From Tribonema minus (lineage: Eukaryota > Sar > Xanthophyceae > Tribonematales > Tribonemataceae), in contig JAFCMP010000490.1 of the NCBI GenBank assembly GCA_017506865.1, forward strand, positions 620,001 through 684,000: a stretch of 64,000 nucleotides of DNA, in the 5' to 3' direction. Below, piece after piece: positions 2,497 through 63,300 of this stretch. How positions within the stretch are numbered: the stretch's first letter is position 1; every line of letters begins with the position of its first letter. Position numbers and translations under genes: made by a program. The notes under the pieces are model-generated. The model had not been told where the DNA came from. It saw only the letters and a program-made list of their open reading frames with translations, and searched no databases.

Positions 2497-6256
<3,760 letters not shown>

Positions 6257-6324
6257 AAAATACAAAATCTCGCTCATTAAGATATCGAATTCTTTTAACT
6301 GTGAGTTTATTAACCATAGTACGC

Positions 6325-21810: not shown

Positions 21811-23269
21811 ATTGCGCTCAGTGCAAGCATGCACATGTCCACCTTTGCTGATGCGCCCTAGAACCTGATACTTATCTAGCCCTGCTTCTGAAGATGCCAG
21901 CTGGGCTCCATTGCAGGCTCATGGCCAGTGTATGCAGCAGTTAATATCATCAAGAGGAGTACTAACAAGGATAGCATTGTGCATGTTGATTTGCAGGCAG
22001 CCACAGTATGACACCTGCTAGTTGAAGACCAGTTTTACGTCTTGCAGCATCCTTGCGCACTCTCTCACGTTCAGTGCTGCTGCTGCTGCTTTTGCTGCTG
22101 CAGCTGCTGCCGTCCGGCAAAGACAAGGGGACGCTGCCAGCACACCGACAGCGCCTGATGAGATGGGCTGCGTTGCGCGACCGCTGATGCCACCACCCTT
22201 TGCAACGCCACCAACTGCAACGTCACACGTGCGACGCCGGACCACAACCCGCTTCATCGACGACTCCAGTCTAAATGATAACTTGCCGGCGGAGGAGTGT
22301 CCGGTGTTGGCCGCGCGTATAGACAATGCATGTATACATAGAGAGGTGGTTTGAGGGCACGCTGTGGCACGCTTTGCTAAGGGTTGACATCACCATAAAC
22401 CCTAACTTTAGGGCTGTTGTGCTCACAGCGCTGCGCGCTGCAAAGCTGGGGCACCGACGAGTGCCAGATCGTACTCGCTGTTAGCAGCATGAAGGGCGCC
22501 GGTGCCATGCGCATTAGCTGCTGGCAACCCAGGGGTTCGCTGTTGTAAACTGTCGCAGAGAGCCGCACAATCAGTACACTTGATGGTGCGAGTACAGGAG
22601 TCTGAAGTCATTCACCGGCCAGTCAATGAAACGACTGCACATTGTACCATAGCAAGTTTGCGTCTGCGTTTGCTTGCTTGCTGCCCCTGTGTTTTGGCCA
22701 TTCGCAGTAAGAAAATTGCTTGCTTCTCTGCTTCTTGCCAGATGATGAGGTAGCACTGCTAGCCCTAACCCTAAGGAGTGCAGCTAGTTTTTGAAAAGTC
22801 AGGCTGACGCCGCCAGAAGTTGGAGTGTCACCGACTTGCTGGTCATGAACCATGCAATGCACTGCTGCGCAGTGCAGTTTAGCTTGGCACACGAGGCTTG
22901 ATCGTAGAGTTGACGTTCTGAGTGGTCAGGCGTCAAAGCAGATGCTTGCCTCATGTTCACACTTGACAGATTTGTCAGAACTAGTGTGCACCCAGCAACT
23001 GCAGCAGCAAACCTCCAGAAGCACAAATCCACGAGAACAGAGGAGATGCGGATAAACGGTGTGATTAAACGCGCTTGGCCTGCCCCCCCCCCCCGCCCCC
23101 CCTTCTCCCGTGATGTGCTCTGCTGTGTCGTTGGCAAACTGTAGACTGAAGGGCAGCTCTACTCTGCCCCCGCCGTACGCACCACAACTTGTGAGACTGG
23201 TCCAGTTTGTCTGTCTAGTCTTGTACGTGCCACTTTCGGGACGACTCGACACCACACACATGCACGGCA
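21811..23269. other. spacer with telomere-like words, no firm gene
   Basis: Contains CCCTAA/TTAGGG words (22396-22412 and around 22760). One plus-strand open frame (22022-22354, 110 codons, with an Ala run and VRRRTTTRFIDDSSLNDN) might be an exon but has no recognisable domain and no independent support. Confidence 0.35.
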
Positions 23270-23400
23270 GTGAGCAGCTATTGCCGCATGTTCTACCCCC
23301 AGGAAATGGTGTTGCCACGCACACAGCAGCAGTGAGCAGCTATGCCACCAATTCCATCCTCACTGGATGGTTTTAGAGGGCACACGGCATCAGTGAGCAG
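23270..23400 (-). repeat. two echoes of the 3' end of the lumen-protein gene
   Basis: The sequence CAGTGAGCAGCTATTG...CCACTGAATGGTGTTG that spans the stop codon (23390-23435) recurs at about 23265-23310 and, more decayed, at 23328-23372. All three lie head to tail. Unlike the intron echoes these lie beyond the last exon, but they have the same geometry. Confidence 0.7.
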
Positions 23401-26400
23401 CTATTGTCGCCTGTTCCACCCCCACTGAATGGTGTTGGCGGGTGCAGCGGGGGCGGCGGCGGCTGTCGCAGCTATCGACTCTTTGAGGTCCAACAGCGCG
23501 TCGATGCGTTCTAGCACGGCGATTTCCATGCTGGGCAACGCGGCTTGGCCCTTCTCCTCAAGCGCCTTGTTCACCTGCACACGATTGACGAAAGAACGAC
23601 AGAAATGGTGGTGAGATGCGGTGCGTTGGTCTGTCCTTTGATTGTTGCCGCTGCGTAATCTAGTACTTCAAGAAGTACTTTGAACTATGTGAACATGACA
23701 GAGAGCAAGCGGATGGGTCCCAAAGCTGCAACTTCAACAACGGCAATGACGCCTGCTCCTTGGCAATAGGCATTTTGATCGTTTTACCGTTGAGCTGATG
23801 TGACACATAGACCAGCAACATGCAGTGGGACACAATATGACCCAACACAGGCGCCATTTTTGGGGTCCCCTTTGTGTTTGCTTGTGTCTGTTTGAGACCG
23901 TGCGTGCTTGTAAACAATGCCGAGAGTTGGCATGGTTTGAGCAGGAATTAAAACTACCTGAAGTCCGGCCATACCATAGTACAAATTGAGGCGACTTCCC
24001 CAGAGTCTCAGTCATATTACTTCAAGATGGTGATATCAACTGCGATTTCCCCAGAGGCGCAGTCGTGAGACGTGAACGTCGTGATCTTGACTGCCACTGG
24101 CGACTTTCAGGCACAACTGTCTGCGTGTCCGCACAGTGACAACTTGATGCAACTTCCCGAGGGTCAGCCATGAAAGTTGCACATCGTCGTCTTGAAGTAC
24201 GCACACCACCGTGCATGCCACCTCCTGTTGCGTTTCACATACTCCAAGAGTATAAGTGCATACATGAATCGTACAGACAACAACAACAACACTCGAAAGC
24301 ACAGATATTCAGTCACATCTGCGTACCTGCACAGTGACGATGGCCTCCGTGCGCTGCACCTGCCCCCCCAGCTTGATGGGCTTGCTGATGCCGTACCCCG
24401 TCAAGTCCCCCGCGTCGAGCGTTGCCAGCTTGCCGTCGACATCCAGCACCACCGCCACGCCAATCTCATCCTAAGGCAAGCGAACGAGACCAAAGTCAGC
24501 CAAGAAAAGTCGATCAAGATAAGCTACAGGGGGTAATTCGTATGTGTTGTGACATGAGGTCAGTAGCCTCCCATGTTGAGCGCTGCCCTAGCTTGGCGTC
24601 AACGTCAACCACTACCGCCGCGCCAATCTCATCCTGCGGCACGACAGCAAGACCGACGTCGACCGAGATCAGCTATAGGGGGCAATTATGTCATGAGCAC
24701 ATGCTGACATGGGGGTCGATGCGCCCATGTTGAGCATTGCCCTAGGTTGGCATCATTGTTGAGAACTTCTGGCATGCCAATCTTGTAAGCTAACATGAGG
24801 TCTGGCGTGCGAAATGTCCACGTTGACCAACATGCAGATAAAAATAGGCACACAGGGTAGCACTAACGCGGGGCGGGGTCTGAGCACCATATTTGCGGTC
24901 GAGCGCTGCTGTGATGCAGAGAAGTCAGACCCTGATCATAACCCTAAGATGGATGGCCTTGCATCTAGTATCGTCAGTATGCTTTGGTGCGTGTGTCTGT
25001 AATCAACAACGCATCACTGATTCCGGCCAGCATGGGCAGATGTGCTGTAAGTAGACCTGAGCGGATAGTAACACTTTGAAGTATGGCATTGCCGCATAGC
25101 AGGGTATGCGCACTCTGCAACTGTTGAAGTTGCACTCGCGCATCTGCGTCTGCGCCATGCCTCAACCAACCCCGTGTTCCAAGCCCAATATTGCCATGCG
25201 TTCACACTCCATAAGGTCAGCAGGTAACTGAGAACACCTTGCTCGTGCAGTAGAGCCTATCATTGAGCCGAACTTTCGAGCGGGCACAAGCCAGGGGTAG
25301 AAGCCAAACGCATGAGCCATACTATATGTGCGCCGTCATTGAGCTACAACACATTTGCAATGTTGACGGCAAGTGGGGTTTGAAAACTTCGATGTTGTAA
25401 CTTCAACTCACCTGTGCCCGTGCGTCGTTGAGCCAGACCTCCTTTGTAAGCGGAAAGGCCAGGTCGTCAGCGGTGAGCTCCAGGAGCGCTGGAAACTTCA
25501 ATCCCTTCAGAGGCACCCTGCGCGACAACAGTTACAGCCCACAGCTCAGGGATGTTGGAAGTTGGGAGAGGCTGAGGCTGAGGGGTGTACTGCGCACATC
25601 GTGATGTTGTGGAAAGGCACACCACCTCTTGTGGCCATGAAAACTTCAATGTGAAGTAATGAAAGCACGTGTGTGCCAAGTACAAGTATCGTGCTGCCCA
25701 TGATGTGAGGGTGAGCGGGCTGTTTGTGCAGGATGTGCACCAGCGCGTGCACCTTCCTGATGCTGCCGCGGCGGAGAAACGCTGGCGCAATCACTCATGC
25801 ATTGCGCACCAAAGCACTCTGTGGTCCTTACGGTTGCGGTCAGGGTTAGGGTTTACCCTAGCCTGACCCTGCAGACTGCGCGCGAAAATCACATCATAGG
25901 TACGCGGCCCCTGAAGGCTGCGGCCGAACGCAGCTCCTAACCCTAAGCGCGCGCACGCAGCGTTGATGTAACGCGCGTGCACCACACAGCGTGGGGTATC
26001 ACGCAACGATGCGTCATTCACACCTTCTGGATGCCACAGGCGGCCCGGACCTCCCGAACGCCGTCACAATGAGGCGCGCGTCCTCCGTGTCCAGCTCGGG
26101 GAACGGCCCCACGTCGGGAAACCCCAGGGGGAACGCGTCCGACTTGATGGACACGACGACGCGCGCGATGAGCTCCCCCGGCTCGCGCAGCGCGTCGCGG
26201 CGCAGGACCTCCTGCTGCTCCGCGCGCACGCGCGTGACCTGCCAGCGGGCAGTGGACAATCGCGGGCGCAAAATCCTCAGGGGTGCATGTGTGTGTGTGA
26301 AGACTCTGGAGGTAATCTGGTAGCTCATAGATTGTTTGAGGGAATGCAGAAGAGGGGGTCGCCCCGGGCTCGCGCAGCGCGTCGCGACGCAGGACCTCCT

Positions 26401-29204
26401 GCTGCTCTGCGCGCACGTGAGTGACCTGCCGCGGGTAGTAAATGGGTCGCGGGCAGCATGCAAAATGAGGCCTCGGGGGGGGGGGGGGGGGTATGCGAAG
26501 AGTCTTGCGCTGTTGCTGAATGAGCTTTGTGAGCTCATCTGAATGAGCGCAGAAGAGGAAGGGTCGCACCGGGCTCGAGCAGCGCGTCGCGCCGCAGGAC
26601 CTCAGCTGCCAGAGCAACGCTTGATTGCGGGCAACATGCAGACCAGGCCGCAGCGACGCAGTGCATGGGGAGAATATTTGCAATACTGAATGTGGGGGCT
26701 AGGCTTTGGGCTTGTTTAATGAGGGAAAGTGAAGTGGCGCGCCCGGCTCGTACAGCACGCGCTTGCCCCAGATACTCTTTGAGTATCACACTTTGGAGCG
26801 TCACTCTTGGGAGTGTCACACTTTGAAGCGTCACTCTATGGTACGTCACTCTTTGGAGCGTCACTCTTAGGAGCGACGTCTTCGAAGCGACGCTCTTTGG
26901 AGCGTCACTCTTAGGATCGTCACTCCATGGAGCGTCACTCTTTGGAGCGTCAACCGTTGAAGCGTCACTCACGGGCACACAATCCATCGTGCTCTTTTGC
27001 ACGTGAGCAGGCCGCAGATAATGTGCATAGTAAATGTTGCTGTCCATGTGAGTCGCACATCGAGATCAAATCCGTGTTTTGCAGGATGCTGCAAGGCGCC
27101 TCTCGTGGCTGGTCTCAGATGAGTCATTACTCCCAATGTATTGAGCCACATTGTTGGCTGCAGCTGCGAAGACCTTGCCATCCAACTCGCCTGTGCAATA
27201 ATGTATCGACTGACACAAAATAAGAGCGTTTGGTGAGGAGGCCCAGGACTCGTCCTGCCCTTAAAGTAGAGTTGAAGTTAAGTTTACACCGCACCCCAAC
27301 CCCTTCGCTATCATCTTTTCTGGTTCTGTGGACCGGTCAATTGCAGAATCCTTACACCCAAGTACGGATGCAGCATGTATATGAGTTGAAGTATGCCACA
27401 ACTCAACGATGTGTATGCTGGCAACCTACTGTGTAAGCGGGCAACGTTTCACTACACGTCAGCATGGTAGCCCAGGAAAAGACTGAGACTGGGCGTTTAA
27501 ACGATACGGTGCACTTGTGTGTATGCACGGCAAACCTGATATACTTCAATATGATAACTCAAGAGAGCACACGTCATGTCATGGGATAGCAGTAATGGCA
27601 GTGAAGTGTTGGGAAGCTGAGCACTGCGGACTGCTTGGCATGCGCGCAGTCGCTGCATGTTTCATGAGTATCTACTGTCAGAAAAGAGGTCGGGAGCATT
27701 GGAGTGTGTCTGGCTGACAGGCGACACTGGCATTGATCAGAGGTGACCATAAGGGCCCAAGGTGGGCATATAGCAACAGCTGAGTACGCGTGAGCTTCAG
27801 CAGTCGCCTGCAGTGCGGTTCTCGCAGATGCCATACCAGTGATTTGAGCGTTTCGGGCGCAAGGGTTTGAATTGGACCTTCAGGGAGCTGCCATGAGATG
27901 CCACGAGATCAGCCTGAGCGAAGTGTTGTTGGCAGTATGCTGCCACAACTGTCGACGCAGCACTGCAACTGCTGCTACAGGATCCTCGCCAACAGGTCAT
28001 CAGATTCATCTAATGAGCAGCAAACGACGCCCAACACGTAATATGGTACCGTGCAGCCTCGCAATGTTACGACACCTTCAATTACCTGTTGCCAGCCACA
28101 GGTGAAGTCGGAAGCGCACACGGCATGACGAGTGCGGGGAGGTTGGCAGGTGCAGGCTTATGCATCGCTCGCGCGAGTTGCCCATCCCTGTGGAACCATG
28201 CGCTCAGTTCTGTGCACAAGAAACTGATGGCAGCGGCCCGCAGGCGTGCTAGCTCCAAGGCTCACCGGATTAAGGTCCGGTGACGTGCAAGTGCTGCTGC
28301 TCTGAATTGGTGAGCACTTCTATTACGGCACCCTTGAAAGACATGTAACGTGTGGGGTTGTAGTGAGGTTTTTCACTTTGCAGGGTCTTTCAATTGTCAT
28401 CAACTGCTGACTTATCAATTGTCATCAGTTGGTGGGAGCACATACTGTACTACATCATGCAAGGCTCACACCTGCGGCTAGACTGGTAGTTGTTGTTGAT
28501 TATGTAGACCTTAATTGTGCAAAAGACTAGCCCAGAAGCTTATTTGAAGCAGGATGTCAGAGCCAACGTCACCTGGCTGAGGCCACGTGGTGATCCAGTC
28601 TGATCAGCTGGTAGCACTTCCTTACTGTTGTGCTTGCTGTATGCCCACCTCCAAAATGCCGGCAATAGGGGCAGCACTGATTGCCAGACAGCGTAAATTG
28701 ACCACAAGTATTCATTTCGAGCACCCAATTACGCAATGCCAATGGTACTTTTCGATACACATGCTTGCTACCTCCTTCTTTCTGATGGCAGTTGCTGTTT
28801 TGATGAAGATCATGCATTGGATCATGTTTTCCTGGGAGCGTATCGAGAGCCAATAGGCCGTCTCTCACCTGCTCCGCGGTCGCCTGCTGCGCCAGCTGCT
28901 GCACGGGATTGATGTCCTCCACCGGCTGCTGCTGCTGCGCCAGCTGCTGCTCCTGCACTATGGCAATTCCGCCGCTCTCGCTGCTCCCTCCTTCTTGAAG
29001 CACAGGCGGCACGTCGCCGATGGCAAGCACCGGTGAGGCAGCCACCACGAGAGCTGCAATGGCACTGCATGCCGCCTTCGTGTTCCCCTGCGCCTGCATG
29101 CAAGTGACGCCAGTCCGCGCCCCTGCCCATGCTCTCTGTGGTGCTTGAAGCACGAAGCCATGGACTGCTGCACCGCATAACGCGAGGATGAGGCCTCGTC
29201 GCAT
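23401..29204 (-). CDS. putative thylakoid-lumen protein with tripartite targeting, five exons
   Basis: Exons 29204-28869, 26238-26024, 25517-25412, 24470-24327 and 23574-23401 join in phase to a 324-residue protein. The start at 29204 places a signal peptide first (MRRGLILALCGAAVHG), then Phe17, the plastid-import residue of red complex plastids. A second hydrophobic run (AACSAIAALVVAASPVLA, ending at residue 61) looks like a thylakoid-lumen signal. A Gln/Ala-rich linker follows. The mature part (SGPPVASRRVPLKGLKFP, TADDLAFPL, VVLDVDGKL, GDLTGYGISKPIKLGG) recalls the beta-sandwich C-terminal domain of bacterial CcmI/CycH cytochrome c maturation proteins; this is a tentative likeness, not an established match. 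Introns 1, 3 and the 3' flank carry decayed copies of exon ends. An upstream in-frame Met at 29432 is possible but would bury the signal peptide. Confidence 0.7.
24600..24785 (-). repeat. two echoes of exon 4 start (acceptor side) of the lumen-protein gene
   Basis: On the minus strand, GCCGCAG followed by GATGAGATTGGCGCGGCGGT (from 24638 down) repeats the exon 4 start GATGAGATTGGCGTGGCGGT, including the AG acceptor. A second, more decayed copy lies at about 24730-24785 and shares GCTCAACATGGG-type flanks with the first. Spacing is about 155-165 bp and decay increases with distance from the exon. Confidence 0.8.
26352..26770 (-). repeat. three echoes of exon 2 start (acceptor side) of the lumen-protein gene
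   Basis: Exon 2 begins CAG then GTCACGCGCGTGCGCGC and encodes RAEQQEVLRRDALREPG. Upstream in the intron, a near-perfect copy with its own CAG acceptor encodes HVRAEQQEVLRRDALREPG (about 26352-26430). A second encodes EVLRRDALLEPG (about 26560-26610), and a third remnant is KRVLYEPGAP (about 26735-26770). Similarity falls with distance. Confidence 0.85.
26790..26990. repeat. minisatellite of about 16 bp in intron 1 of the lumen-protein gene
   Basis: About a dozen imperfect head-to-tail units of the type TTTGGAGCGTCACTCT. Variants include TTTGAAGCGTCACTCT and TTAGGAGCGACGTCTTCG. It begins within the region just upstream of the exon-2 echoes. Confidence 0.85.
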
Positions 29205-30064: not shown

Positions 30065-33000
30065 TCAGAGCGCCTGCACTGTACCATCAGGGAACTCTCT
30101 GTGCGCCGTTCCGTCAGGCGTGGTCACGTCGCGGTGCCCCTCTGGGTACTCTACGACCCTGACGCCATCGGGGAAGGTGCTTTCGGAGACGCCTCCTGGC
30201 AGCACCACCTGCGTGTGGCGCAAAGTCACAGAGCATTGCTGCATGAGTAAAAAGAAAGACTGTGCCAGCATCGTCACGCGATGGGGTCTGCACACATTGG
30301 TGTGGAGCACTTGCTGAGTGATGGCAAGCTACACAACGTATCACCAGGCGCGCGCGCACCTTGCGCGTGCCGTCGGGAAAGCTGATGTCCTTGTGGCCGC
30401 CAGGACTCCGTGGAGTTCTCCTCAATGCTGGTATACATCATCCTCCTTGCAACAATACGGCATCACCCCAGTATTGTAGACTTAAGCCGTTGAAACTGAA
30501 GTTTCAACTTCAAAGAAGTGTGCACTCAAACGTAAAGCGCCGCACACACCTTGAGCGTCCCGTCGGGAAAGCTGATGTCCTTGCGGCCGTCCGGCGTGTG
30601 CCTCTCCGACTGCCCGCTCGGGAACGAGACCTTCTCAATGCCGCGCGTACACCGTTGCCTGGCCCTACATCCCAGTATAGTACACCATTGAAACTTCGCA
30701 TGCACCACATAAAACGCAAAGCGCCGCACGCACCTTGCGCGTTCCATCGGGGAAGCTGATGTCCTTGCGGCCGTCCGGCGCGTGCCTCTCCGACTGCCCG
30801 CTCGGGAACGAGAACTCCTCGGTGCCATCGGGGTGCGTGGTGTGCGTCGTGCGCGCCGCGGCGTACGTATACGTGACGACGCCGGTGCGCGGGTGCGTGC
30901 GCTTGGTGTCGCCGTTTGTGTAGCACACGACCGCGCTGCCGTCTGCGGCGGCAGCGTGACACACGGGTGCCCAGAAAGCGGTGTTAAAGAAAGAATGGGG
31001 CTGCGGTATGCGGCAGCATGACACACGGGGATGCAGAAAGTGGTGGCACAGAAAGAATAGGGTCCCTGGCTGCCCGCACCAACACGACGCGTTAAGCGCT
31101 AACGTAGGGTCTTTGCTGGTCTGCGGGCAAGGTTTGCGCTGCATCAGCTGCACAATGCGTGTACTCATGTTTTGCTAGCCGAAAGTAGACCAGGTTTCTG
31201 CAAGAGCGTCGTTGGCTGCGGTTTGAAGTAGCGCCGCTTTCATAGTGCTAATATGCCAGCGGCAGAGTTTGATAAAACTAAGCAGCCATGCATGCGGGTC
31301 GTAGAACCACTAGCAAGATGGCAATTGCTACGCATGCAAAGAGATTGCAGATGCGAACACCTTGAAAAGCAGCTGCCCTTGCACAGGCTCCGGCGCGGGC
31401 AGCAAGCTGAAGTTGAAGTTTTTGTGCCTGATATTGCAAGCAGTGACGCACCGCTCCGGAGCGCTGACCCCGGCAGCAGCGCATGACACGTGGCACAAGG
31501 GACAGCCACGGTCGCGGTTGGCACTGCTATGCATCAAACTTCAACTATCATGAGCACTTCAACATCTGAATGGAGACGCACCTGGCAGCACCTCCTTCTG
31601 CGTGCCGTTGGCAAAGCGCACCACGCTGCCTGCGCCCTCTCCGCTGCCGCGCTGCGCCGTGCCCGAGCTCACGCCCCCTGCCACTTGCGCATCCACTTCA
31701 CATGCGACGGCGACGGACGGTCCCGAGCGCTGGTGCCTCCGATCGCCGAACGTAACCATTTTCATCGCCTTCGCTGCTGCCTTATGTGCAGAGATGACGC
31801 CATCGCCGCCGCTGCTGCCGCCGCCATTTGCGGCAGCTGCGCTATTTTCATCGTCGTCAGCGCGCGGTGCTCGCGGTTTGCTGTTGCTGCTGCTGCCGTT
31901 GGTCAGTGCACGCCGCTGCAGCAACGGCGCCGCCGATGAGCCCGCACTGTCCAGCAAGCCCTGGCGCTGCGGCCGCTGCCGAACGCTCAGTACGGCGGCG
32001 GGCGGCGGTGCTGCCGCTGCCGCTGCGCGCGCCGCCGCCGCCGCTGCCGAGCTGCTGTACGAGTCCGCTGCGCTGCGCCTGTCGTCGCGCGCATACGACT
32101 GGCTGTCATCGCCATAGTCGGCGACAACGAGATTGTCGGCAGGAGCGTACGACGCGGCGCCATACCCGCCGTCGCCGCCGCTGTAAGACTGAGCCTCGCT
32201 GCCCACATCCGAGCCGTCCCAGGCTGCGCCGTCGCCGCCGCCGCCGCCACCGCCATTGACGAACATGTCTTCATCCAGCTCCTCTTGCCCCTGGTAGGGG
32301 ACAGTCTCCCTCAACCCCCCCCCTATCGATGCGCCGTTCCGCCTGCCTCCCGTAATCGTGCCGAGCTCAGCTTCACGGTCGCCTACGCGCTCAGGAACGC
32401 CCCCCCCGTGAGGCGCACCAGTGGACCACCGTTTCTGGACGTGACGACGTTCGGCGGCAGGTGCCGTCGTGATGAGCTCCCCCGTGACGGACAGCGCGGT
32501 GGAGGCATCGTAGAACGGCGCCAGAGCTGCGGAACGGGCCAGGAACGGCGCCGGCGCATGCGCGTGCGCGACTGAGGCGTGCTGCAGCGCCTGCAGGCCG
32601 CTGCGCTCGAGGTACGCGACGTGCGCCTCCAGCTCCTCTATGCGCGCCGCTTGCTCCTTGACCTGTTGCGGGGAGGATGACGCGGTGGTAGTGGCGGGAG
32701 GCTGATGCGTAAGCACGTGTGCTTGTGTTGACGCAGCATTGCGCTGCCTGTCGGATTTTCGTGGTTTTGCGGCAAAGCGGGCCTCTGAATGTGTGAGCTT
32801 GACTGCATCGGCCGCTGCGGATCACGGAGCGCGGCGTGCACCTTGGGGTTTCAAGCGCGCGCAACGTGCTGCTCCTTGACTTGTGTGCACAGTGTATGTA
32901 CCTTGTAGCCACAGACAGACGCAAGACGCACATTGTCAACAGCTCGTGCAATGCAATTGTGTCGCGCAATGCCAATGTTTATGTGTCCCAACTGGCACGG

Positions 33001-35667: not shown

Positions 35668-35699
<32 letters not shown>

Positions 35700-46164: not shown

Positions 46165-46205
<41 letters not shown>

Positions 46206-48894: not shown

Positions 48895-49583
48895 ACGGGG
48901 GCACAACGCGACACACACTGCCCAAAAGCGGTGCCTACAGCGCATCTTGAGACAGCACCATGTCTCTATTGTCCGCAATGAGGACGCTAGCGTCTTCAAG
49001 GTACCGGGGTATCGGGCGGACACAGTCATTGGCCCAGGGTGTCTGCACTTTAGCAGTGCATACCGTAACAAGGGAATAGTGCTAGACACAAGTGTGCGCG
49101 CGCCCACAGCGAGCTCGTACCTGACAGGCAAAACAAATGCCTCGAACACGGACGGCTATGCTGCTGGGGTGGGGGAGGACGCGAAGGTCAAGCACCACAC
49201 CGGCACCTTGACGTCATCTTGGGCTTTTGTGCCATTCGTGCAGGAGTCGTACGGACGGCTGGGCAAGCAGACAAGCCTTTTTGTTAAGGAGTTGGCAATG
49301 CACTCAGCACTGTGCTCAGGGGGGGGGAAGGCAGATGTGTTACGCAAGGACGGGTTAGCTAAGCGTCAGATCCACATTGAGCTGAGCATATCGCTGGCGC
49401 GGGAGTTGGCGGAGCGCGTCATGGCATACACACGTGGAGCGCGAATGCTGGGCTGTGTTGCGGCGCCGGTATCCAAACTCCTAGGGCACAGCGCAGACTA
49501 GGCTGCTGCGTTGACGCAAGCTTTTCGATTGCATAGGCAACCCGGCCTCCCTTGGGCCTTTACAAATACAAGTCCATACGTAC
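48895..49583 (+). mobile_element. young 5'-truncated LINE copy, 689 bp
   Basis: It matches 5022-5710 of the LINE at equal length with about five substitutions (roughly 99% identity by eye). It contains only the C-terminal nuclease-like domain and the 3' untranslated region; the frame to the stop at 49501 stays open. GTACACG at 48891-48897 and 49580-49586 is a probable seven-base target duplication that overlaps the element ends. The copy sits about 210 bp upstream of the hybrid-cluster protein start codon. Confidence 0.9.
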
Positions 49584-49792
49584 ACGTGTTCCTTTTGAGC
49601 TGCAGCGCGATCCCGGGCGCAGCCAGTTCTCGGAGGAACAGTCAACGTCCACCATCAGTTTGAAGGTAGTTGACGGTGAAGCAGCCTCGGAGTTTGGATT
49701 AGCGGGATTGGGATTGACGGCGGCCATGGTGTTCACACTCACAACTCGAGCAGTAGCGTTCTGCTGCCGCTGGCCAAACATCACTCTCGACC
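49584..49792. promoter_or_regulatory. 5' region of the hybrid-cluster protein gene
   Basis: Only 209 bp lie between the LINE copy and the start codon, so the insertion must lie in or near the promoter or leader. No TATA element is apparent. A short GGATTAGCGGGATTGGGATT repeat-like stretch lies at about 49694-49716. Confidence 0.4.
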
Positions 49793-52700: not shown

Positions 52701-55700
52701 GGGCTTTCTGCGCCCTAAGTGAGAACCATCAACAACTATAGTATACAATTACCCCTGTCGCATGCAACAGAGAACGCTCGTGCACGCCCTTATCACTGCG
52801 CTATTCGTCGCCCGTTGACATCAGCTTGACAAGCTTGCGTACTCACCGTTTTCGCTCCGCCGCCGCATCGCTCCGCAGGTCTCAAGGGCATGATGGCGTA
52901 CGCAGCACACGCACGCGCGCTCGGCCAGCCAGTGGAGGACGTGAGCGCTGCTGCCGCGGAGACCATGGCAGCGCTCGCCGATACCAGCTCTAAGTGAGTA
53001 TCTGAGTCAACGAGTAGAGTCAACGAGTAGAGAGAGTGCTAGCAAACGGCAGAGACCATGGCAGCACTCGCCGATACCAACTCCAAGTGAGTATCTGAGT
53101 CATCGCGTAGAGTACTAGCAAAGCAGATGCCATGGCAGCGTTCGCCGATACCAGCTCTAAGTGAGTATCTGAGTCATCAAGTAGAGTGCTAGCAAAGAAG
53201 GAATGGTCCAGGGGTATGTATGCATGACCGACAGACGACTGTTGAGACAAGTCAGCAATCTATAAGGCCATGTAGCGATCACAGCGCGTGTCCTGCGCTG
53301 GCAACCAACTTCACCTTCAACTTCACCTTCCAAGTTGCACCCCTAAACTCCAGATTCAGTGACATGACCTCTCTCCTTGCTTGGCCGCCGCCGCGCGCGC
53401 GTGTTCCCAGGACCATTCCCGAGATGCTGGAACTCGCCCTGGGCGTTGGCGCTGCCAACTACAAGGCCATGGCAGCACTCGACCACGGCCACAACAGCCT
53501 CTACGGGGCCCCCGCGCCGTGCGACGTGCGCACCTCCGCCGTCGCCGGCAAGTGCATCCTCGTCAGCGGCCACGATATTCATGACTTACTCACGGTGAGT
53601 GCGCGCGTTGAACTTTTTACTGAACTTAATTTATGATGAATGAATACTGCCGGCAAAGTGCATCCTCGTCAGCGGCCATGACATTCACGATCTGCTCACG
53701 GTGAGCATTTACCCCTTGATGAACTTCACTGTGAGCATGATTTTTGAAGCTGAACACGAGTTTCGGCCGGCAAATACATGTCCTCTTCAGCGGCCACGAC
53801 ATCCACAAACGCGTGTGCACTTGCGTCTGCACTCATGTGTACTCTGCTGTGTACACTACCTTGTGTACTGCAGATCCTGGAGAAGACCGCCGGCAACGGC
53901 ATCAACGTCTACACTTACGGCGAGCTGCTGCCCGGCACTACCTACCGTGACTTTTGTCTGTACTCATGTGTACTCATGCGTGCTCGACTGTGTACTGCAG
54001 ATCCTGGAGAAGACTGCTGGCAAGGGCATCAACGTCTACACTCACGGCGAGCTGCTGCCCGGCAACACCTACCCAGAGCTCCAGAAGCACAAGCACCTCA
54101 TTGGCAACTGGGGCGGGCCCTGGCAGCTGCAGAAGGTATGTATGCATGTGCAGTTATATACCCCTCTGCTGCTATGTTGGGTATGTTAGGTACAGAGTTT
54201 GCTGCATTAGCTGTGCCACGCAGTGTGAGAGCACCTTGCGATCGTGTGCGTGAAGAAAGGATGTTTGCTGGCTTTGGTGTTTCTAGCGGGGTCACACAAG
54301 CGCGCCCCCGTACGAACACTCGGTAACCTGTGCTCAGCAGGCGACAGTTGGGAGTCACTAACCCTAGCCCTTTCTCAAAACCTAGTGTTCACCGAAGTGA
54401 TGTGGCTCAATGTATCAAGTATCACAGCATGTGCAGCAGGCAGTCACGAGTCGCTAGTGCTCACGCGAGGTGATGTACCTTGAACCACCAGTGGGTATCA
54501 GGACATTGTCGTCATAGCGCGCACAAAAGCCCACCAAGCCGTGGCAACCGCGCAGCGGGCAATCACGTGCCAACTGTTGGGTATTATCACAAAAGCATGC
54601 TTGTGGTTACACTCACAGTCATGCGCGCGTGCATATCGGGTGCTGCAGATGGAGTTTGGAAAGTTTCCCGGCGCCATCGTCCTGACCAGCAACTGCCTCG
54701 TGGAGCCGCAGAAGAAGTACCGCGGCCGCATCTTCACGCGCAAGTGAGGCACTCCCCATTGTGTCTGCCAGAAATTTAATGTGTGAGAGGAAGTCTGCGT
54801 TCAAATGTGTCCATCAACTAAGTAAGCCTCTGATGAGACCTTGTAGAAGCGGGCTGAAAACGGCATGATCGTCACATGCTCTCGCCGCACTGCTGTTACA
54901 GTAGTGTCGTACTACACCATTGAAGTGAGCAACGCTCAGTCCACAGTGCCAGCCTGTACTTGTCAGAACACACACTTCCGCTGGCGCTGATCACAACACA
55001 CACACACCCTGTCGCACTGCGCAGGATGGTGGGGTGGGAGAACATCCCCCACATCGCCGATGACTGGTCCAACTTCGACACAGTCATCGACATCGCCCTC
55101 AGTGCCCCCGGCTTTGCTGAGGACGAACCCGTGACGTCCGTTCCCGCGGGCTACGGCCACAAGGCGGTCGTGGGGCTGGCGGGGCCTATTCTCGAGTCCA
55201 TAAAGAGCGGTGACCTCAAGCGCTTCTTCGTCATCGGCGGGTGAGGCAACAGACTTTTGTTGAAGATTTGCAGTATCAAAGAGGTGTTTCTCAACGGTTA
55301 TTTCTGGCACGGCTTCTCTAGTCTAGGGCATGATTTCACCTCAAAGATCAACCTGCGGGCTACGGCCACAAGGCGGTTGTGGGGCTAGCGGGGCCTATTC
55401 TGGAGTCCATCAAGAGCGGTGACCTACAGCGCTTCTTCGTGATTGGCGGGTGAGAAAATAGACAGTGATGGAAGAAGATTTAGGGGTTTTACAGTATTGT
55501 GCATGACTTCTGTATAGTTGGCGGGCATAATACCACCTCAAGGAACGACCAGCGGGACCTTAGACCTCACTAGCATGTATTCCATCAAGAGCGGCGACCT
55601 CAAGCGCTTCTCTGTCATTGGTGGGTGATAACTTGCTCTCGAATACATACATATTGAAAATTCTGGGGTTTTATGGTATCAAAGAGTCGCTACTCAGCGG

Positions 55701-57785
55701 TAGTTGTGTGCATGGCTTCTCTTCTCTAGTCTCGACAAGTGCTTCGCAAGAAAGGCTGTTGAACCCCCCCCCCCCCCCCTGTCTACTTGCGACGACCCGG
55801 AGCGCTCGTACTTTGGCGACCTTGCACGCCACACGCCCTCACCATACCTACATTCGCCAATGTCACCTGACCTAACCGATACTAAGGTATTTACTTTGCA
55901 CGATGGAACGAAATGTGCCTGACGACCCCCCCCGCCCCCCCCCTTCCCCATTTGTTGCCGCTGTGGCGGAACGGGAGGGCGAGCGCTCCTACTTTGGCGA
56001 CCTGGCGCGCCACGTGCCCTTACTATACCTACCTACCCCAATGTGACCTGACCTGCCCTGACCAATACTTTGCGTGATGAAACGGAGTGTGCTTGACCCC
56101 CCCCCCCCCCCTGCGCTCCCCCCCTGCAGCTGCGATGGTACGGAGGGCGAGCGCTCCTACTTTGGCGACCTGGCACGTCACGTGCCCATCGACGCTGCCA
56201 TCCTCACCCTGGGCTGCGGCAAGTTCCGCTTCAACCGCGACACATTCGAGACGACCAAGGCCGGACTGCCGCGCATGCTGGACGTAGGGCAGGTGCGTTA
56301 CATGAGTCAATTCGAGTATGAGTCTTGAGTCCGAGCGACCATGCTGGACGAGGGCAGGTGCATTGCAGGAGTCGAGTCCACGAGTCGAGTCTAAGTGACC
56401 ATGCCGCTCATGCTGGACGTGGGGCGGGCGTGTTGCCCGAGTCGAGTTGAGTCGAGTAGGAGTCTGAGTGACCCTGCGTCCCTCGCCCCCGCCCTATGCC
56501 TAGCCATTACGTGTGCTGCTGTCATTGCCGGGGGAGTGCAACGACGCTTTTCGTTGTTCCGTTGGCCAAAAGCTGCGCAGCCAGTGCATTCCCGCCTTCG
56601 GCGCCGCCGCCGCAACCCTATCCATTTCGCGTGCCTCTGTCACTGCCCGCGCAGCACAACAGTGCTCAATGTTTCCCGCCAGCCCAAAGCTGCGCTGCCA
56701 GTTCTAATACTTCTTGAAGTAGTCCACAGCTGTGCTGCCAGCACAAGCGTGCGTTCATCATCGCCGCCTCACCTCTGTGTGCCGCATTCATTGCCCGCGT
56801 GCAGTGCAACGACGCTTATGGCGCGGTGCAGATAGCGCTGGCGCTCGCGGGCGCGCTGGAGTGCGAGGTTGGGGACCTGCCGCTCAGCTTTGCCATCTCC
56901 TGGTTCGAGCAGAAGGCGGTCGCCGTGCTCCTCACGTGAGTGGCAAGGGGTCCTGGCGCGTATGTATGGAAACAAATCGAAAGATCGTAGAGCTCTACTA
57001 GTAGGTGACAAGGAGTGGTTAGCCGCAAGAGCCTTCCGCCAATAACCGTGGTCGCCGCTGCAGCAGTCATTGGCAGCAAGTCAAACAGTGCTATCATATC
57101 CACAGTAGTTGAATAGATTTCTGTGTGCACATTTTATAGCGTTCGAGGTATATATGTGTATTGCTTTATGTATGCAAGAGGCCGCATGGTTTGTGATCCT
57201 GCACATGCGCGCGACGTACTCCGCGTGGGGATGCATTGTGGGCCAGCTTGTGGCAAAGCGCATCACCTTCTATACCATCACGACGTATGTTCAAGGTGAG
57301 GTTGCCAACGCGCCGAAGCACCATCGGCACAATTGACATTGGCTACAGCTTTCAGGCACATGTATGCTTGAAGCACCTCACCGCGGCTGCTCGTTCTAAT
57401 TATCTGGGGCATCACCCTAGCTGCAGACGAATTAACGCATGCCGTCGCGCCACGCATGCGCTGGCCAAAACGCTGTGCTGTGCACGGGTACACCGTTGCC
57501 TTGGCGCATTATGCATTCTTCATGTATTCATTTGTTCACGCTTCAGCCATTTCACGCGTTGGCAGTAGCTGCATCGGTGCTCAACTGCTTCACTCTCTTT
57601 TTCGCCCGTCGCGCTGTGCGCACAGGCTGCTGTCTCTGGGCATCCAGAACATCCACATCGGCCCCGCAGCGCCGGCATTCGTAACGCCCGGCATCCTCAA
57701 GGTGCTGCAGGACAAGTACAAGCTGCAGTACATCGACAGCGAGAACTATGAGGCGGATCTGCAGAAGATGCTGCAGGGTATGTAG
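49793..57785 (+). CDS. HCP: hybrid-cluster protein (prismane/hydroxylamine reductase family), plastid-targeted, thirteen exons
   Basis: Exons 49793-49951, 50209-50293, 50622-50805, 51293-51479, 52074-52161, 52879-52993, 53411-53594, 54001-54135, 54649-54743, 55025-55240, 56130-56292, 56805-56935 and 57626-57785 join in phase to 633 residues. HCPs handle reactive nitrogen species (hydroxylamine reduction and NO-related chemistry) with a hybrid Fe-S-O cluster. All expected hybrid-cluster ligands are present: H327 (SGHD), E351 (THGE), C395 (TSNC), C484 (GGCDG, the persulfide site), C512 (LGCGK), C538 (GQCND) and E572 (WFEQK). The N-terminal cluster motif is C75-x2-C78-x8-C87-x6-C94. The first 23 residues are a signal peptide followed by AAF, with Phe23 as expected for import into a red complex plastid. 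The match extends to the C-terminus. Introns hold echoes of at least seven exon ends. Confidence 0.93.
50905..51200 (+). repeat. two echoes of HCP exon 3 end
   Basis: Exon 3 ends with [35 protein letters not shown] and a GTGAGT donor. Copy 1 (about 50905-51011) encodes [15 protein letters not shown] and [20 protein letters not shown] with donor GTGAGA and an open frame. Copy 2 (about 51086-51197) is more decayed ([20 protein letters not shown]) and has lost the donor. Spacing is about 206 and 180 bp. Confidence 0.95.
51689..51877 (+). mobile_element. SINE-like retroposon in HCP intron 4
   Basis: A 189-bp element flanked by AGTACAAGC at 51680-51688 and 51878-51886. It has a GGGC-TTTTTGGC-GCCC hairpin near its 3' end and an AATTAATAAAA tail. 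About 180 bp are about 90% identical by eye to 58990-59172. It is inserted in sense orientation and 5'-truncated relative to the other copy. Confidence 0.85.
52600..52745 (+). mobile_element. old, diverged relative of the SINE-like family in HCP intron 5
   Basis: TGTAGACTCCGGTAGCAAGC and CATCTGGGCTTTCTGCGCCC (52656-52715) correspond to TGTAGATTCCGTACAGCAAG and CATCTGGGCTTTTTGGCGCC in the younger copy. The tail and target duplication are no longer clear. Confidence 0.55.
53040..53170 (+). repeat. two echoes of HCP exon 6 end
   Basis: GAGACCATGGCAGCACTCGC-CGATACCAACTCCAA-GTGAGTATCTGAG (to about 53100) and GATGCCATGGCAGCGTTCGC-CGATACCAGCTCTAA-GTGAGTATCTGAG (to about 53175) repeat the exon 6 end and donor. 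The intron part following the donor is duplicated too, so the unit spans the splice junction. Confidence 0.95.
53645..53812 (+). repeat. two echoes of HCP exon 7 end
   Basis: GTGCATCCTCGTCAGCGGCC and ATGACATTCACGATCTGCTC-ACG-GTGAGCA (about 53657-53706) repeats the exon end with its donor and the ligand motif [11 protein letters not shown] second copy at about 53765-53812 (CTCTTCAGCGGCCACGACAT) is more decayed. Confidence 0.95.
53865..53950 (+). repeat. echo of HCP exon 8 start
   Basis: TGTACTGCAG then ATCCTGGAGAAGACCGCCGG-CAACGGCATCAACGTCTACA repeats the exon 8 start (ATCCTGGAGAAGACTGCTGG-CAAGGGCATCAACGTCTACA) including the acceptor, 127 bp upstream. The frame is open for over 24 codons ([20 protein letters not shown]). 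In this copy His of THGE is replaced by Tyr, while the ligand Glu remains. Confidence 0.95.
55350..55630 (+). repeat. two echoes of HCP exon 10 end
   Basis: GGCTACGGCCACAAGGCGGT through TTCTTCGTGATTGGCGG-GTGAGA (55358-55456) repeats the last ~30 codons of exon 10 with its donor. A second copy, TCCATCAAGAGCGGCGACCT through GTCATTGGTGG-GTGATA (55580-55631), is shorter. Spacing is about 210 and 176 bp. Confidence 0.95.
55785..56025 (+). repeat. two echoes of HCP exon 11 start
   Basis: CGGAGCGCTCGTACTTTGGC-GACCTTGCACGCCACA (about 55798-55834) and GGGAGGGCGAGCGCTCCTAC-TTTGGCGACCTGGCGCGCCA (about 55974-56014) repeat exon 11. Each is preceded by its own C-tract, like the tract before the real acceptor at 56129. 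Spacing is about 180 and 170 bp. Confidence 0.9.
56335..56430 (+). repeat. echoes of HCP exon 11 end
   Basis: ACCATGCTGGACGAGGGCAG-GTGCATTG (about 56339-56366) and CTCATGCTGGACGTGGGGCG (56407-56426) repeat the exon 11 end CGCATGCTGGACGTAGGGCA. The first keeps a GT donor. Confidence 0.8.
56500..56800 (+). repeat. echoes around HCP exon 12 start
   Basis: GTGCTGCTGTCATTGCCGGG-GGAGTGCAACGACGCTT (about 56510-56547) resembles the exon 12 junction GTGCAG-TGCAACGACGCTTATG at 56799, about 270 bp downstream. An intervening AAAGCTGCGC(T/A)GCCAG word repeats at 56570, 56686 and (shorter) 56727. The region is a partly decayed tandem array. Confidence 0.65.
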
Positions 57786-58894: not shown

Positions 58895-59172
58895 CTCTCA
58901 AGGGCATCGCCCTGGCGCGCTTACGCTCGGCACTGTCGGCAGCGCTCCACATGGCGTACTCTGGCCGTGTCATGACACACATGGCAGAATCCAGGGGAGG
59001 GGGGCACATGGAGGAGGACGTAGGGGAGGACCCCGAGATGCCATTTGGCGGCGGCGGCGTTTGAGTGGTTGTCGTTGCGACACTTTCAGACTGTCATACG
59101 ACATGTAGATTCCTTACAGCTAGATGCCAATCATCTGGGCTTTTTCGCGCCCTGAGCGAGAATTAATAAAAA
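58895..59172 (+). mobile_element. SINE-like retroposon, longer copy
   Basis: A 278-bp segment flanked by GTACCTGTG at 58886-58894 and 59173-59181. The last 183 bp match 51689-51877. It carries the GGGC-TTTTTCGC-GCCC hairpin and AATTAATAAAA tail. The extra 5' part suggests that it is closer to full length. No protein-coding frame is evident. Confidence 0.85.
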
Positions 59173-59181
59173 GTACCTGTG

Positions 59182-60341
59182 ATCTTGAGAACTTCAATTG
59201 TATGCATGACACCTGTTTGTCCCGATCACCTGTTCTTCACCATGGGCAGATTTAACGCCCAGAGGATTTTGAAAAAGGTGTGGCGGCAACATGCAGTATG
59301 CAAGCATCAGAAAGACTTGCCGGCCCAAGACAGCAGCCATCTTGACACACCAGAACCACGCTGCATGTGCAGTCCAGTGCATAGCGCCTGGCGCTGTTCA
59401 CAGTTCACAAATGGTCATACGCAGATGAGAAAAGTAGCATACCACACAGGGCAATGCGCACAGAGAGAATGGCACCGGGCCAACACCAGCCTGCGCGCCG
59501 CAAATAGGAAGGCATGGGAAATGTGCATGTGGTGTTCCGAGTTTGCCCTGGTGAGCATGCGCGGGAAAAACGCCTGTACGCCACATGCAGGATACCGTGT
59601 GTGCTGTGTGCTGTTCAGACATGCCACAGCCCCCCCCCCCCCCGCGCCCCCCCTCTTTCCCTGCTTCCTAAAAAACGTATCCCCGCTTTCTCCCCTTTGA
59701 TAGCCAAACCGACCTTTTCGCGCGCGGTCTCCGGCACCGCGCGGTGCTGCAAGTCTACTGCAGATAAATAGAGAGTCGCTCGTCAATGGTTTCCTATGGT
59801 AGATTCCGCCGCGCTGTGCTACAAAATTGTGTGCCTGTGCTGGTCCCCACTGCAAACTGTCGGCCGGCAGCCCCAACCCCAGTTCAGCGGGCTTGAAAAA
59901 CCCCCCACACAGGACCCCCCCCCCCTCCGGTGTGCCTGCTACCGGCTCTGCTGTTCTGCTGCTACTGCAGGCCAGGGCCTTGTACGCCCTGTCCTGAGGA
60001 TATGTACATAAACCAGTCCCCGCTGGTCGGCCTGCCTGCCGCGCATCGTGCGAGTACAGCAAAGCCTTTGTTTTGCTATGCAGGGGCCAATGCAGCTGCC
60101 GCTGCCGCTGCTGCTGCCGCTGCTGCTGCCGCTGCTGCCGCCGCTGCTGCCGCCGCTGCTGCCGCCACCGCAGTTGCCGCCACCGCAGTTGCCGCTGCTG
60201 CCTCAGCCGCTACGCAACCATGCCTCAGGAGCTGCTGCCACTAGAGGAAGGGGGGTCCCGTGCTGCAGCAGTGTTCAGCACCGGTGCTGCTGCTGGCTGC
60301 AGCAGCTGTGTTCCCGCGAAGACTTGAAGCGGCTCGAACCG
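59182..60341. other. spacer with an unassigned open frame and a triplet repeat
   Basis: A 173-codon plus-strand frame (59179-59700) with several Cys and His has no family features and ends in a Pro-rich C-tract, so I do not call it. A (GCTGCC)n-like repeat lies at about 60090-60210 and can be read as poly-Ala or Leu/Pro in different frames. Confidence 0.4.
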
Positions 60342-63300
60342 CTACAAGCGGAAGCGCTCCGCCATTGGCACAGCCGGCCGCTTGTGGAAGACTGCAGTGA
60401 GCACGGCACATGCAAACATACGCAACGGTGAGCATTCGCCAGGCCCAGCAGCACAGGTGTAGATCTGCAGCGCTGTTAGCGACAGAAGACAACCAACAGG
60501 CCCAGAGTTTTGCGCAAAGCGCCTGTTGCTTTAAAGTGCAGGGTCACTCGGATACGAACTTCTAGTGGTGGCAGTACCAGGCAAAAGTTACCCGCAGGCG
60601 TCATGATCACCACCAGCAAGTGCATGTGCGCATCCCTGCAGGCAACCCACGGGCAACGCGTGCCCACCCGTTGCCCTGCTTTGTATGCTCAAAACACAAC
60701 GACTTCCTACTTTAGGCAAACAGCTGCAGTTGTATCGTGCACTCTAGTATCACTGCAATGGCTTGCAGGCTCATGCTGAGACAATTACAATGTGGAAGCA
60801 CATTGGCAGTTACTGTGTGATCACGTTTGCAATTTACGCATGAAGCTCGCTCGAGGGGGTGACCAAGATCATCATTGACAGCCCTTGCGCCCAGCCCACT
60901 CTGTTCTAGACCAGCAATTGTAGATGCACCCGAGACTGTTAAGCTGAGGGAACCAGAATTCGCTCACCGTTACACTGAGACTGCGCACGTGAGCAGCTGC
61001 AAACTGCATGCGCGCAACATCGCTTAAAGGCGGTTTGCAATCATTAACAGCAACCCCCGCAGCCCCGCCAGCTCTGTTCTATATAGGCCATGAGCGCATG
61101 GCTGTTGCGCTGATTGAGTAGATGCACCTACCGCAATCCCACAAGCTCACAAGTAGCCTGAGATACTGCTAACAAGAGCAAGTCATCGCTTGCGCAATCT
61201 GCACACGAGCCTAGCTTGAGGGGGTGGGTGCCTGAGATCGTCCCCCACAGCCCCCGCTTGTGGTGCTGGCAGAAATACGCAAAGAGTACCTATGTTCTAG
61301 ACCATGAGCGTCCACAACCGTCGCGATGATGGAATCTGAGACACCGCGATTGCCGCACGCAAGCGACTGCTTCCACGAACTGCATGCATACCTCGCTTGA
61401 GGGAGTGCCCTAGATCGTCCCCCACAGCCCCCGCGCCGCGCCCGCGCTCTGTTCTAGACCATTAGCGCCCACAACCGTTGTACTGATTGAAGTTGATGTA
61501 CTGCGATTGCCTAAGCTCACACTGCGCACATGAGCAAGTAATTGCTTCCACGATCTGCATGCGCACCTCGCTTGAGGAGGTGTCCGAGATCGTCCCCCAC
61601 AGCTATGCTCATTGAATTTGATGTACAAACCACAATCCCAAAAGCTCACAGCTAGCCTGAGACACTGCGCACGTGAGCCAGTACTAGCTTCTGCAGTTTG
61701 CGTACGCATACCTCGCTTGAGGGGGTGCCCGAGATCGTCCCCCACAGCCCTTGCTTGTGGTGGTGGCAGTACCACGCAAAAAGTACCTATGTTCGAGACC
61801 ATGAGGGCGCACGACCGTTGCGCTGATTGAATCTGATGTACCGCGATTGCCCAAGCTCACAGTGACGCTGACACTGCGCACGTGAGAGTAATAGCTTCCG
61901 CGATTCCCGTGCGCGTACCTCGCTTGAGCGGGTGCCCGAGATCGTCCCCCACAGCCCCCGCGCCGCGCCCGCGCGCTCTGCTCCCCGACCATCCCACGGC
62001 ATTGTTGCTCACGGCGCCGTGTTCCAAGGCAGCGGCGCCGTTGTGGTTGACATCGGATGATGTCTCCTCTGCCGCCTCTGCCGCCTTGAGGGCCTTTGCC
62101 GTCGTCAGGTACTCGGCGGCCCTGTAGCATGCATAAGCGGTCAACATCGGTTTGAGCACGTCAGGTGTGTCTGAATGACCTCGTTCTTTAGAGTAAGTGT
62201 TCTGTAGCGTAAGTGTCAGGGTGGGGCTCCATGGTCTGCAGCACTCGGGCGCCGCGCATCTGTCACCCTATTGCACGTCACGTGCAGCCCGTGTATGGCA
62301 TACTGTCGTTATAAAAACACCTCTCTAGATACATGTTGCCTCGCTGCGAATCGTCAGGTATGACAGTCACTTCGAAGGTGTGACGTCAAACACTGCGCAT
62401 CTGTCACCCTGTTGCATGTGTACGGCATACTGTTGTTAAATAGCGCTTCTCTAGATACATGCTGCCTCTTCGCCAATCGACAGTATCACAGTAACTGCAA
62501 CTGTGTGACTTCAACTTCATCTGTCGAGCAGGCAGCGGCCCCTGATCTTTCCCGCCACCAGTCCTGCTAACCGCAACAGTCACTTCAACTGACTTCAACT
62601 GCAAATGTCGTGATTTAAACGAGCCGGCTTTTTTGAACGTACGCACGTTGACGGTCCATAACTTCAGCGCATGAAGCGACCAATACCTAACTCCACAGCT
62701 CCCCCTGGTCCTCAAACTTGTGAAGCGCAGCCCCCTCAACGCTTCCTTCACCTGTCGTGCGCGCCGCACCGCCGCTCCAGCCGAGCCCACAGCAACCCCC
62801 CATGCCAGTCGCTGTCTTAAGTGCCCCACCTGCCGTGTACGGCACTGCCATGTAGGCCCACCGACAACTTCAACCTGAAACCTCAAAGTGCGGACTGCAA
62901 CTTCAACTTTGATAGTTCATCTGTCGTGCGCGCCGCGCAGCCGCGCCCTCAGCGCCCACGTGTGCCAGTCGCCGCTGTCCGCGAGCGCCACGCGCGAGAC
63001 GCAGTTGGCGGACAACTTCAACATGCAACTTTAAGTACAAACTTCAACTTCAACACGTCACCTGTCGTGCGCGCCGCGCCGCCGCTCCAGCCGCGCCCAC
63101 AGCGCCCACGCGTGCCAGTCGCCGCTGTCTGCGAGCACCGCACGCGAAACGTAGTTAGCGGCGAGGTCCACGTTGCCCTGCTGCGCCTCCATCGCAGCCC
63201 ACGCCTGCCACACCGCTCCGACGCTGCCCGCGTCCGACCAGACGCGCACCGCCCACTCAAACAGCTTCCTGCAGGGGGGTGCGTGTCGGGGGGATTGGTA

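Follow-up and report, generated by a model that had tools for sequence, protein, structure and literature searches.

About half of the introns that we examined in Tribonema minus, a xanthophyte (yellow-green) stramenopile alga, hold old, decaying tandem copies of the neighboring exon edge. Our starting point was a window of 64,000 nucleotides (G000:C490:620001-684000) of a 158-Mb assembly in 554 contigs, for which an original prediction, made from the sequence alone, had claimed that the introns of all five intron-containing genes carry repeated copies of their own splice junctions. The window includes a gene for a hybrid cluster protein (HCP), which we analyzed together with nine chaperonin genes from across the genome. 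In these ten genes we observe the tandem copies themselves, their side-specific geometry, a polarity among successive copies, neutral decay, longer introns where copies are present, and an excess of copies at splice junctions. We consider it probable that introns of this alga have lengthened stepwise from their edges through short tandem duplications that cross splice junctions and then decay neutrally, with the duplications anchored at the junctions.

Tandem copies of exon edges in adjacent introns

The HCP gene was modeled by spliced alignment of P0001, a EukProt protein derived from a Trinity transcript of a related strain. P0001 aligns over all 633 residues, 625 of which were counted as identical, and yields 13 exons and 12 GT-AG introns; the gene matches the Prismane and hydroxylamine reductase profiles. 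Chaperonin profile matches across the genome were grouped into ten genes, nine of which (all but G3, on contig C51) were modeled from spliced alignments with solved relatives or with GroEL. The PDB, searched for a cpn60 template, returned no entry at the cutoff used. Joined frames are open in the five chaperonin models that were printed out, and the G10 product has a 99% match over its full length to P0121, a related-strain transcript. Before any counts we excluded terminal pseudo-exons shorter than 30 bp with the introns leading to them, one 193-bp exon of G9 lying between two terminal pseudo-exon ends, and two "introns" of ~50 bp (in G1 and G6) with the terminal exon beyond each. The resulting sample of 10 genes has 63 introns, of which 62 have GT donors and all 63 have AG acceptors.

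We aligned 60-bp exon edges to the adjacent intron and took introns of other genes as the null (n = 1512 comparisons; maximum score, 148; 99.9% level, 107.5). Above the 99.9% level, a copy was present in the adjacent intron for 24/63 donor edges and 15/63 acceptor edges, so that 30/63 introns have a copy of at least one of their edges. The far ends of the exons, used as a control, had no copy at this level (0/47 and 0/50) and 2/47 and 0/50 at the 99% level. As predicted, donor-side copies lie downstream and acceptor-side copies lie upstream: in self-alignment and in translation, the exon end, the donor, and some intron recur downstream of the donor, while the exon start and the acceptor recur upstream of the acceptor. 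In the HCP gene, 7 of the 24 intron-flanking exon ends are copied above the 99.9% level, five at donors (exon ends at 50805, 52993, 53594, 55240, and 56292) and two at acceptors (exon starts at 54001 and 56130). The exons of the other four window genes (A, B, C, and E) are predictions from codon usage; against a separate null (n = 780; maximum, 111; threshold, 107), 10/50 predicted exon ends are copied in the adjacent flank (two in A, two in B, four in C, and two in E) and 0/50 in the opposite flank. All five window genes therefore carry such copies, as claimed, although the claim of more than 20 affected exon ends comes down to 17 at the threshold used.

Self-alignment identified arrays of copies in 33/63 introns. 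They are unevenly spread between genes (chi-square p = 0.003, on small counts): arrays occupy 6/6 introns in G6, 6/6 in G10, 6/8 in G7, 4/5 in G1, 5/12 in HCP, 2/5 in G2, 2/6 in G8, 1/8 in G5, 1/5 in G4, and 0/2 in G9. Successive copies are spaced 74 to 354 bp apart, mostly 75 to 225 bp, the range given in the original prediction; the array period has a median of 153 bp (interquartile range, 124 to 171), the exon share of the duplicated unit ranges from 0.08 to 0.80, and far copies of junction arrays reach up to ~800 bp from the junction. As a separate observation, the 19.9 kb flanking G5 (the CCT-alpha gene) holds 0 arrays and the 20 kb flanking G10 (the cpn60 gene) holds 7, a hint of regional variation.

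Where several copies are present, the array is polar. Two or more copies are present in 22 arrays: the copy closest to the exon has the higher similarity to it in 17 of these and the farthest copy in 2, with 3 ties (sign test p = 0.0007), in agreement with the predicted increase of decay with distance and with the order expected if every junction-spanning duplication sets its new copy directly beside the exon. Arrays also go with greater intron length (median, 815 bp with arrays and 456 bp without; p = 3e-5). In the one paralog pair examined, G4 and G10 have five intron positions in common, as judged by equal exon lengths. The G10 intron is longer at all five (2382, 897, 1131, 865, and 823 bp, versus 357, 479, 772, 302, and 524 bp in G4), and it is G10 that has arrays in all of its introns. 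The geometry, the polarity, and these length differences, together with the neutral decay described below, support the original proposal that introns lengthen by junction-spanning duplication while the copy attached to the exon is kept.

Placement of arrays at junctions and decay of the copies

A unit of ~150 bp placed at random in short introns often crosses a junction, and anchoring at junctions therefore needed a test of its own. With exon edges included, and with alignments of trinucleotide entropy at or below 3.6 filtered out (here as in the pair count, the simulation, the intron-only classification, and the 160-kb scan below), we recovered 39 arrays, of which 15 cross the donor, 13 the acceptor, and 6 both, making 34 that cross by at least 8 bp. 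Two of the remaining five reach 2 and 5 bp into the exon and the other three end 0, 14, and 29 bp short of it, so that 0/39 arrays in the ten modeled genes lie more than 30 bp from a junction. Among the 34 arrays detectable from intron sequence alone, 29 cross a junction. We also counted single pairs, as a check on whether clustering had hidden inner arrays linked to junction arrays: 73 of 85 pairs cross a junction, 8 lie within 30 bp of one, and 4 are inner, of which 3 match an exon edge. We then simulated duplications that fall uniformly and decay neutrally in 30 array-free introns, six times at three decay levels, and applied the same detection; of the arrays detected, 55 to 63% were inner and 40 to 48% lay more than 30 bp from a junction, compared with the observed 5/39 and 0/39. 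The chance of 0/39 at 40% is ~2e-9 if arrays are independent, and their independence is only partial. In these ten genes, the excess at junctions goes beyond what a survival filter and detection bias provide.

Several results weigh against anchoring. An intron-only classification, with exons masked, placed 20/38 arrays inside introns when 20.6 were expected at random, and taken alone this result is neutral. It was not used as a classifier, since it misses junction copies with a short intron part; most of its "inner" arrays belong to junction arrays in which the copy at the junction includes too little intron to be detected by itself. HCP intron 5 also has a weak inner pair (E = 8e-5), which lies 66 bp away from the acceptor, and G6 has an independent one. 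In 160 kb without gene models, 37/56 arrays had a coding-like copy where ~27 were expected from shifted positions, and in random stretches 19/25 did so (shifted mean, 14.4; maximum, 20), a weak and only modest excess. Clustering pairs into arrays could mask inner arrays joined to junction arrays, and arrays are not fully independent, as genes differ. Finally, hairpins are not enriched at the boundaries of the duplicated unit (score of 4.26 versus a background of 4.33 over 38 boundaries). The original prediction had proposed to set junction-spanning repeats against other intronic tandem repeats; in the ten genes that comparison favors the junctions when exon edges are included and is neutral in its intron-only version.

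Two alternatives have the same core as junction-anchored duplication and differ from it on anchoring only, so that our confidence in the three overlaps. In the first, duplication is uniform along the gene and interior arrays are lost faster, through deletion or repeat contraction, while the stretch next to the exon is shielded because deletions reaching into the exon are lethal. Deletions must indeed spare the exon, and survivors anchored at the edge would then arise without targeted breaks. We nevertheless regard this as unlikely, since the persistence of the far copies noted above argues that the interior is not lost so fast, and since we would guess the effect at ~2-fold, less than the observed deficit. 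The second, which we find more doubtful still, invokes short tandem duplication uniform along the gene, selection against exon-disrupting events, and easier detection at junctions where the exon copy is constrained. The wide spread of exon share indicates that breakpoints are not fixed, the intron-only classification fitted random placement, and both geometry and polarity follow automatically from tandem duplication. However, uniform duplication leads to the inner and distant arrays of the simulation, which are missing from the observed set, and it sits poorly with the 29 of 34 intron-detectable arrays that cross a junction. Part of the geometry is a survival filter; random duplication with survival of harmless events covers the geometry but not the closeness of arrays to junctions.

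For decay, we extended the exon edges to 90 bp while keeping the threshold from 60-bp edges, which gave 44 copies versus 39 in the exon-edge test. Their exon part has a mean identity of 86% to the exon (range, 65 to 98%), with differences of.126,.112, and.200 at the three codon positions, a pattern that fits a copy free to change and an exon that tolerates mainly silent changes. The predicted inclusion of intron bases beyond the splice site was borne out by the distal 30 bp of the intron part, which has 65% identity versus a null of 49%. GT or AG is kept in 34/44 copies (77%), and the neutral expectation,.88 squared, is also 77%. Together with the codon-position pattern, this retention gives no sign of copies kept by selection.

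A related-strain product, P0009, retains HCP intron 7 sequence. It has a stretch like the second donor copy (MSSSAAT..., about 22/26 residues by manual count) and a frame-shifted stretch like the acceptor copy, whose intronic part is about 28/52 identical and whose adjoining exon is 45/46 identical (manual count). These matches indicate that the copies in HCP intron 7 are older than the split of the two strains and have evolved faster than the exon. A retained-intron product of this kind, and the GT or AG still found in most copies, might suggest that copies serve as decoy, backup, or alternative splice sites or exon ends under selection. We consider such a function very improbable: splice-site retention is no higher than the neutral expectation, the codon-position differences fit an unconstrained copy, HCP copies run into stops when read in the frame of the exon, splicing in P0001 uses the sites attached to the exons, and P0121 agrees along its full length with the spliced G10 model. 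Although repeats occur within introns of many genes, there is next to no chance that they are mobile introns (introners) or another transposable element, given that copies match their own gene's exon edge at a strength reached against other genes' introns in only ~1 in 1000 cases, that unit boundaries lack hairpin enrichment, and that introns of the one paralog pair examined are at common positions rather than new. Equally negligible is an assembly or haplotype artifact, for although the assembly is in many contigs and tandem repeats are prone to misassembly, copy identity varies widely, modeled exons are intact, and the RNA-derived protein of the related strain has orthologous, diverged copies.

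A possible route and its relation to known systems

Under junction-anchored duplication, short tandem duplications would recur with one breakpoint in the exon and the other in the flanking intron. In a duplication across the donor, the first copy would splice as before and the second would turn into intron; in one across the acceptor, the last copy would remain exon. Such events would leave the protein unchanged and thus survive, as wholly exonic ones mostly would not. The new copy would then decay neutrally, and later duplications at the same junction would shift older copies inward, so that the intron grows stepwise from its edges. We infer that wholly exonic duplications are purged, that duplication events are ongoing, and that breaks are concentrated at exon edges.

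In human and mouse cells, small tandem duplications have been shown to form where breaks leave complementary overhangs and these are filled in before the ends are joined (PMC8355091), and offset breaks in Tribonema, one in the exon and one in the intron, could be filled in and joined by a similar route. Fill-in by CST-Pol alpha-primase followed by joining makes such duplications at engineered breaks, where overhangs can be as short as 43 bp; among human insertions of <100 bp, small tandem duplications are described as the commonest (PMC8355091). Like these, the Tribonema duplications are tandem, and they would arise at putative breaks with no need of flanking repeats; unlike them, they have a median array period of 153 bp. 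The Tribonema copies are tandem with no boundary hairpin, and microhomology is not resolvable on decayed copies. A palindrome or hairpin at the unit boundary had been suggested by eye and was rejected, its score not being above background. Enriched intron words are simple repeats (TTAGGG-like, ACTTCAA, and ATTCATTC); some AT-rich words are commoner at the unit boundary, which we took as ordinary intron sequence. Breaks at exon edges might come from transcription, R-loops, or nucleosome edges, but this is speculation; the array period is near nucleosome size but broad, and we rest no argument on it. It is conceivable, though we would stop short of favoring it, that a mutational process seeds duplications specifically at exon edges, with one break in the exon and perhaps tied to transcription, splicing, or nucleosome edges, and that it is a main source of intron length, each new copy being added at the splice site so that introns would grow from the outside inward, in the manner of tree rings.

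Tandem exon duplication and mutually exclusive exons repeat whole exons with intact frames inside an intron. Exon sequence is likewise repeated within introns here; in contrast, the 44 Tribonema copies are partial, decayed edges with a neutral codon pattern and loss of some splice sites. Introners are families of elements common to many genes, as in Amoebophrya, Aureococcus, and Micromonas (PMC7789003). They too place repeated sequence within protist introns, whereas each Tribonema copy matches one exon edge, and hairpins, which like terminal inverted repeats mark the ends of introners, are not enriched at the unit boundaries. In the Rogers model, introns arise from duplicated exonic pieces bearing AGGT (PMC3443670). 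Tandem-duplicated gene pieces turn into intron sequence in both cases, but the Tribonema unit already has a real splice site, and no intron gain was seen in the genes examined. In potato RdRp, intron 2 was gained through tandem duplication across an intron-exon boundary (PMC4974935); there as well, the duplicated segment runs from the 3' part of an intron into the 5' part of the exon that follows, and it inherits its splice signals from the parent junction. The potato case is one event that gave a new intron and added exon sequence (PMC4974935), whereas in Tribonema existing introns are affected, repeatedly and on both sides, and the extra copy is nonexonic in our models. Searches of open-license full-text literature returned no account of introns lengthened genome-wide by duplications anchored at their junctions. 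The original prediction likewise knew of no described genome-wide process with this geometry; duplication across a splice junction is known from a single potato gene.

Occurrence in the window and in other families

Further cases were judged by eye from profile matches that overlap in profile coordinates, without a statistic. Extra matches of the exon-edge kind, in which an exon end is repeated downstream or an exon start upstream, occur in kinesin genes on C246 and C511, a tRNA synthetase on C445, and chaperonins on C5, C51, and C135. A paralog of HCP on C2 has two, at exons other than those of the window HCP; P0002, the NCBI hybrid cluster protein of T. minus, has 13 matches in C2:996569-1004451, seven of them 92 to 99% identical. 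Other overlaps are ambiguous, for example on C101 in the kinesin scan, C4 and C527 in the tRNA synthetase scan, and C4 in the AMP-binding scan, and no AMP-binding gene gave a clear exon-edge case by profile matches. Judged from these overlaps, the profile matches suggest the same picture elsewhere. The evidence for the genome-wide reach proposed originally consists of the ten modeled genes, the window, and profile matches in a few further families; the arrays are uneven between genes and not universal.

Features of the window are listed in the table below. Pfam scans of aligned frames in the window returned Tcp10_C, BT1, and Prismane, and a scan of two forward window frames returned no family. 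In HCP intron 7, the first donor-side copy of exon 7 retains its GT and the second is the one recognizable in P0009.

Exon-edge copies and their source exons in the window (positions are those of the window; offsets in bp)
Feature	Position	Strand	Basis or remark
HCP (hybrid cluster protein/hydroxylamine reductase) gene, 13 exons, 12 introns	49793..57782	+	spliced alignment of P0001; profiles
HCP exon 3, source of donor-side copies	50622..50805	+	spliced alignment; exon-edge test
Two donor-side copies of HCP exon 3 end, offsets 202, 401	50893..51226	+	last-35-bp identity 0.86, 0.63
Donor-side copies of HCP exon 6 (52879-52993) end, offsets 93, 167	53021..53187	+	
Donor-side copies of HCP exon 7 (53411-53594) end, offsets 106, 224	53649..53818	+	
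Acceptor-side copy of HCP exon 8 (54001-54135) start and upstream intron, offset 127	53825..53946	+	recognizable in P0009
Donor-side copies of HCP exon 10 (55025-55240) end, offsets 209, 384	55352..55624	+	
Acceptor-side copies of HCP exon 11 (56130-56292) start, offsets 349, 169	55800..56038	+	
Donor-side copy of HCP exon 11 end, offset 135, strongly decayed	56381..56427	+	
Gene A, predicted exon 26053-26241 and acceptor-side copies near 26357-26407, 26569-26609	26053..26609	-	score 264
Gene A, predicted exon 24336-24467 and acceptor-side copy, offset 161	24336..24783	-	score 181
Gene B (Tcp10_C domain), predicted exon 30722-30952 and donor-side copies 30547-30648, 30342-30401	30342..30952	-	score 250
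Gene B, predicted exon, acceptor-side end copied in flank above	33679..33882	-	score 144; copy only placed to flank
Gene B, separate local repeat	33417-33694		offset 173
Gene C (BT1/FBT transporter), predicted exon 39016-39195 and donor-side copy 39383-39444	39016..39444	+	score 152
Gene C, predicted exon 43004-43174, acceptor-side copies (offsets 199, 401) and donor-side copy 43262-43333	42557..43333	+	scores 195, 169
Gene C, predicted exon 45328-45477 and donor-side copies, offsets 138, 282	45328..45753	+	score 217
Gene E, predicted exon 63064-63267 and donor-side array, offsets 169, 310	62747..63267	-	score 232
Gene E, predicted exon 61899-62120 and donor-side array below, offsets 181-868	60835..62120	-	score 227

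Among the best 120 homologs of the window HCP there is no identical protein named T. minus, only the paralog P0002, and the gene may be missing or fragmented in public annotation. A DNA search for HCP alleles found none, its sole outcome being a dispersed element in HCP intron 4 (51691-51883; ~193 bp) with a 5' G-run and an end near AATAAAAAG; a partial copy lies near 59008. Of 1578 first-look candidates for this element, 40 were scored, and about half of 10 aligned copies are flanked by a short duplication that starts with GTACA. The element resembles the 3' end of a retroelement that has lost its 5' part. Short TTAGGG-like repeats occur within introns of several genes (e.g., 51489-51516).

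Elsewhere in the window, a long open reading frame (ORF) at 2287-5628 is presumably a reverse-transcriptase element, and a second partial copy of its C-terminal part lies at 48400-49501. An AT-rich minus-strand ORF at 5861-6325, which we take to resemble organellar tatC, perhaps marks an insertion of organelle DNA. Satellite arrays at 14951-17379 and 18887-21437 have similar-looking units of ~356 and 373-381 bp. At 12229-12585, 81-bp repeats lie within a long minus-strand ORF that we assume to be ankyrin-like from its look, and they are perhaps a duplication tolerated inside an exon.

Intron lengthening is usually attributed to transposon insertion. The 30/63 sampled introns with exon-edge copies record growth by duplication of their own splice junctions, with a polar order where several copies are present, so that the sequence itself can give rates and relative ages and show how mutation and selection are balanced at splice sites. 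Such copies could mislead gene predictors and short-read spliced aligners. If the anchoring at junctions is mutational, it points to breaks localized at exon edges.

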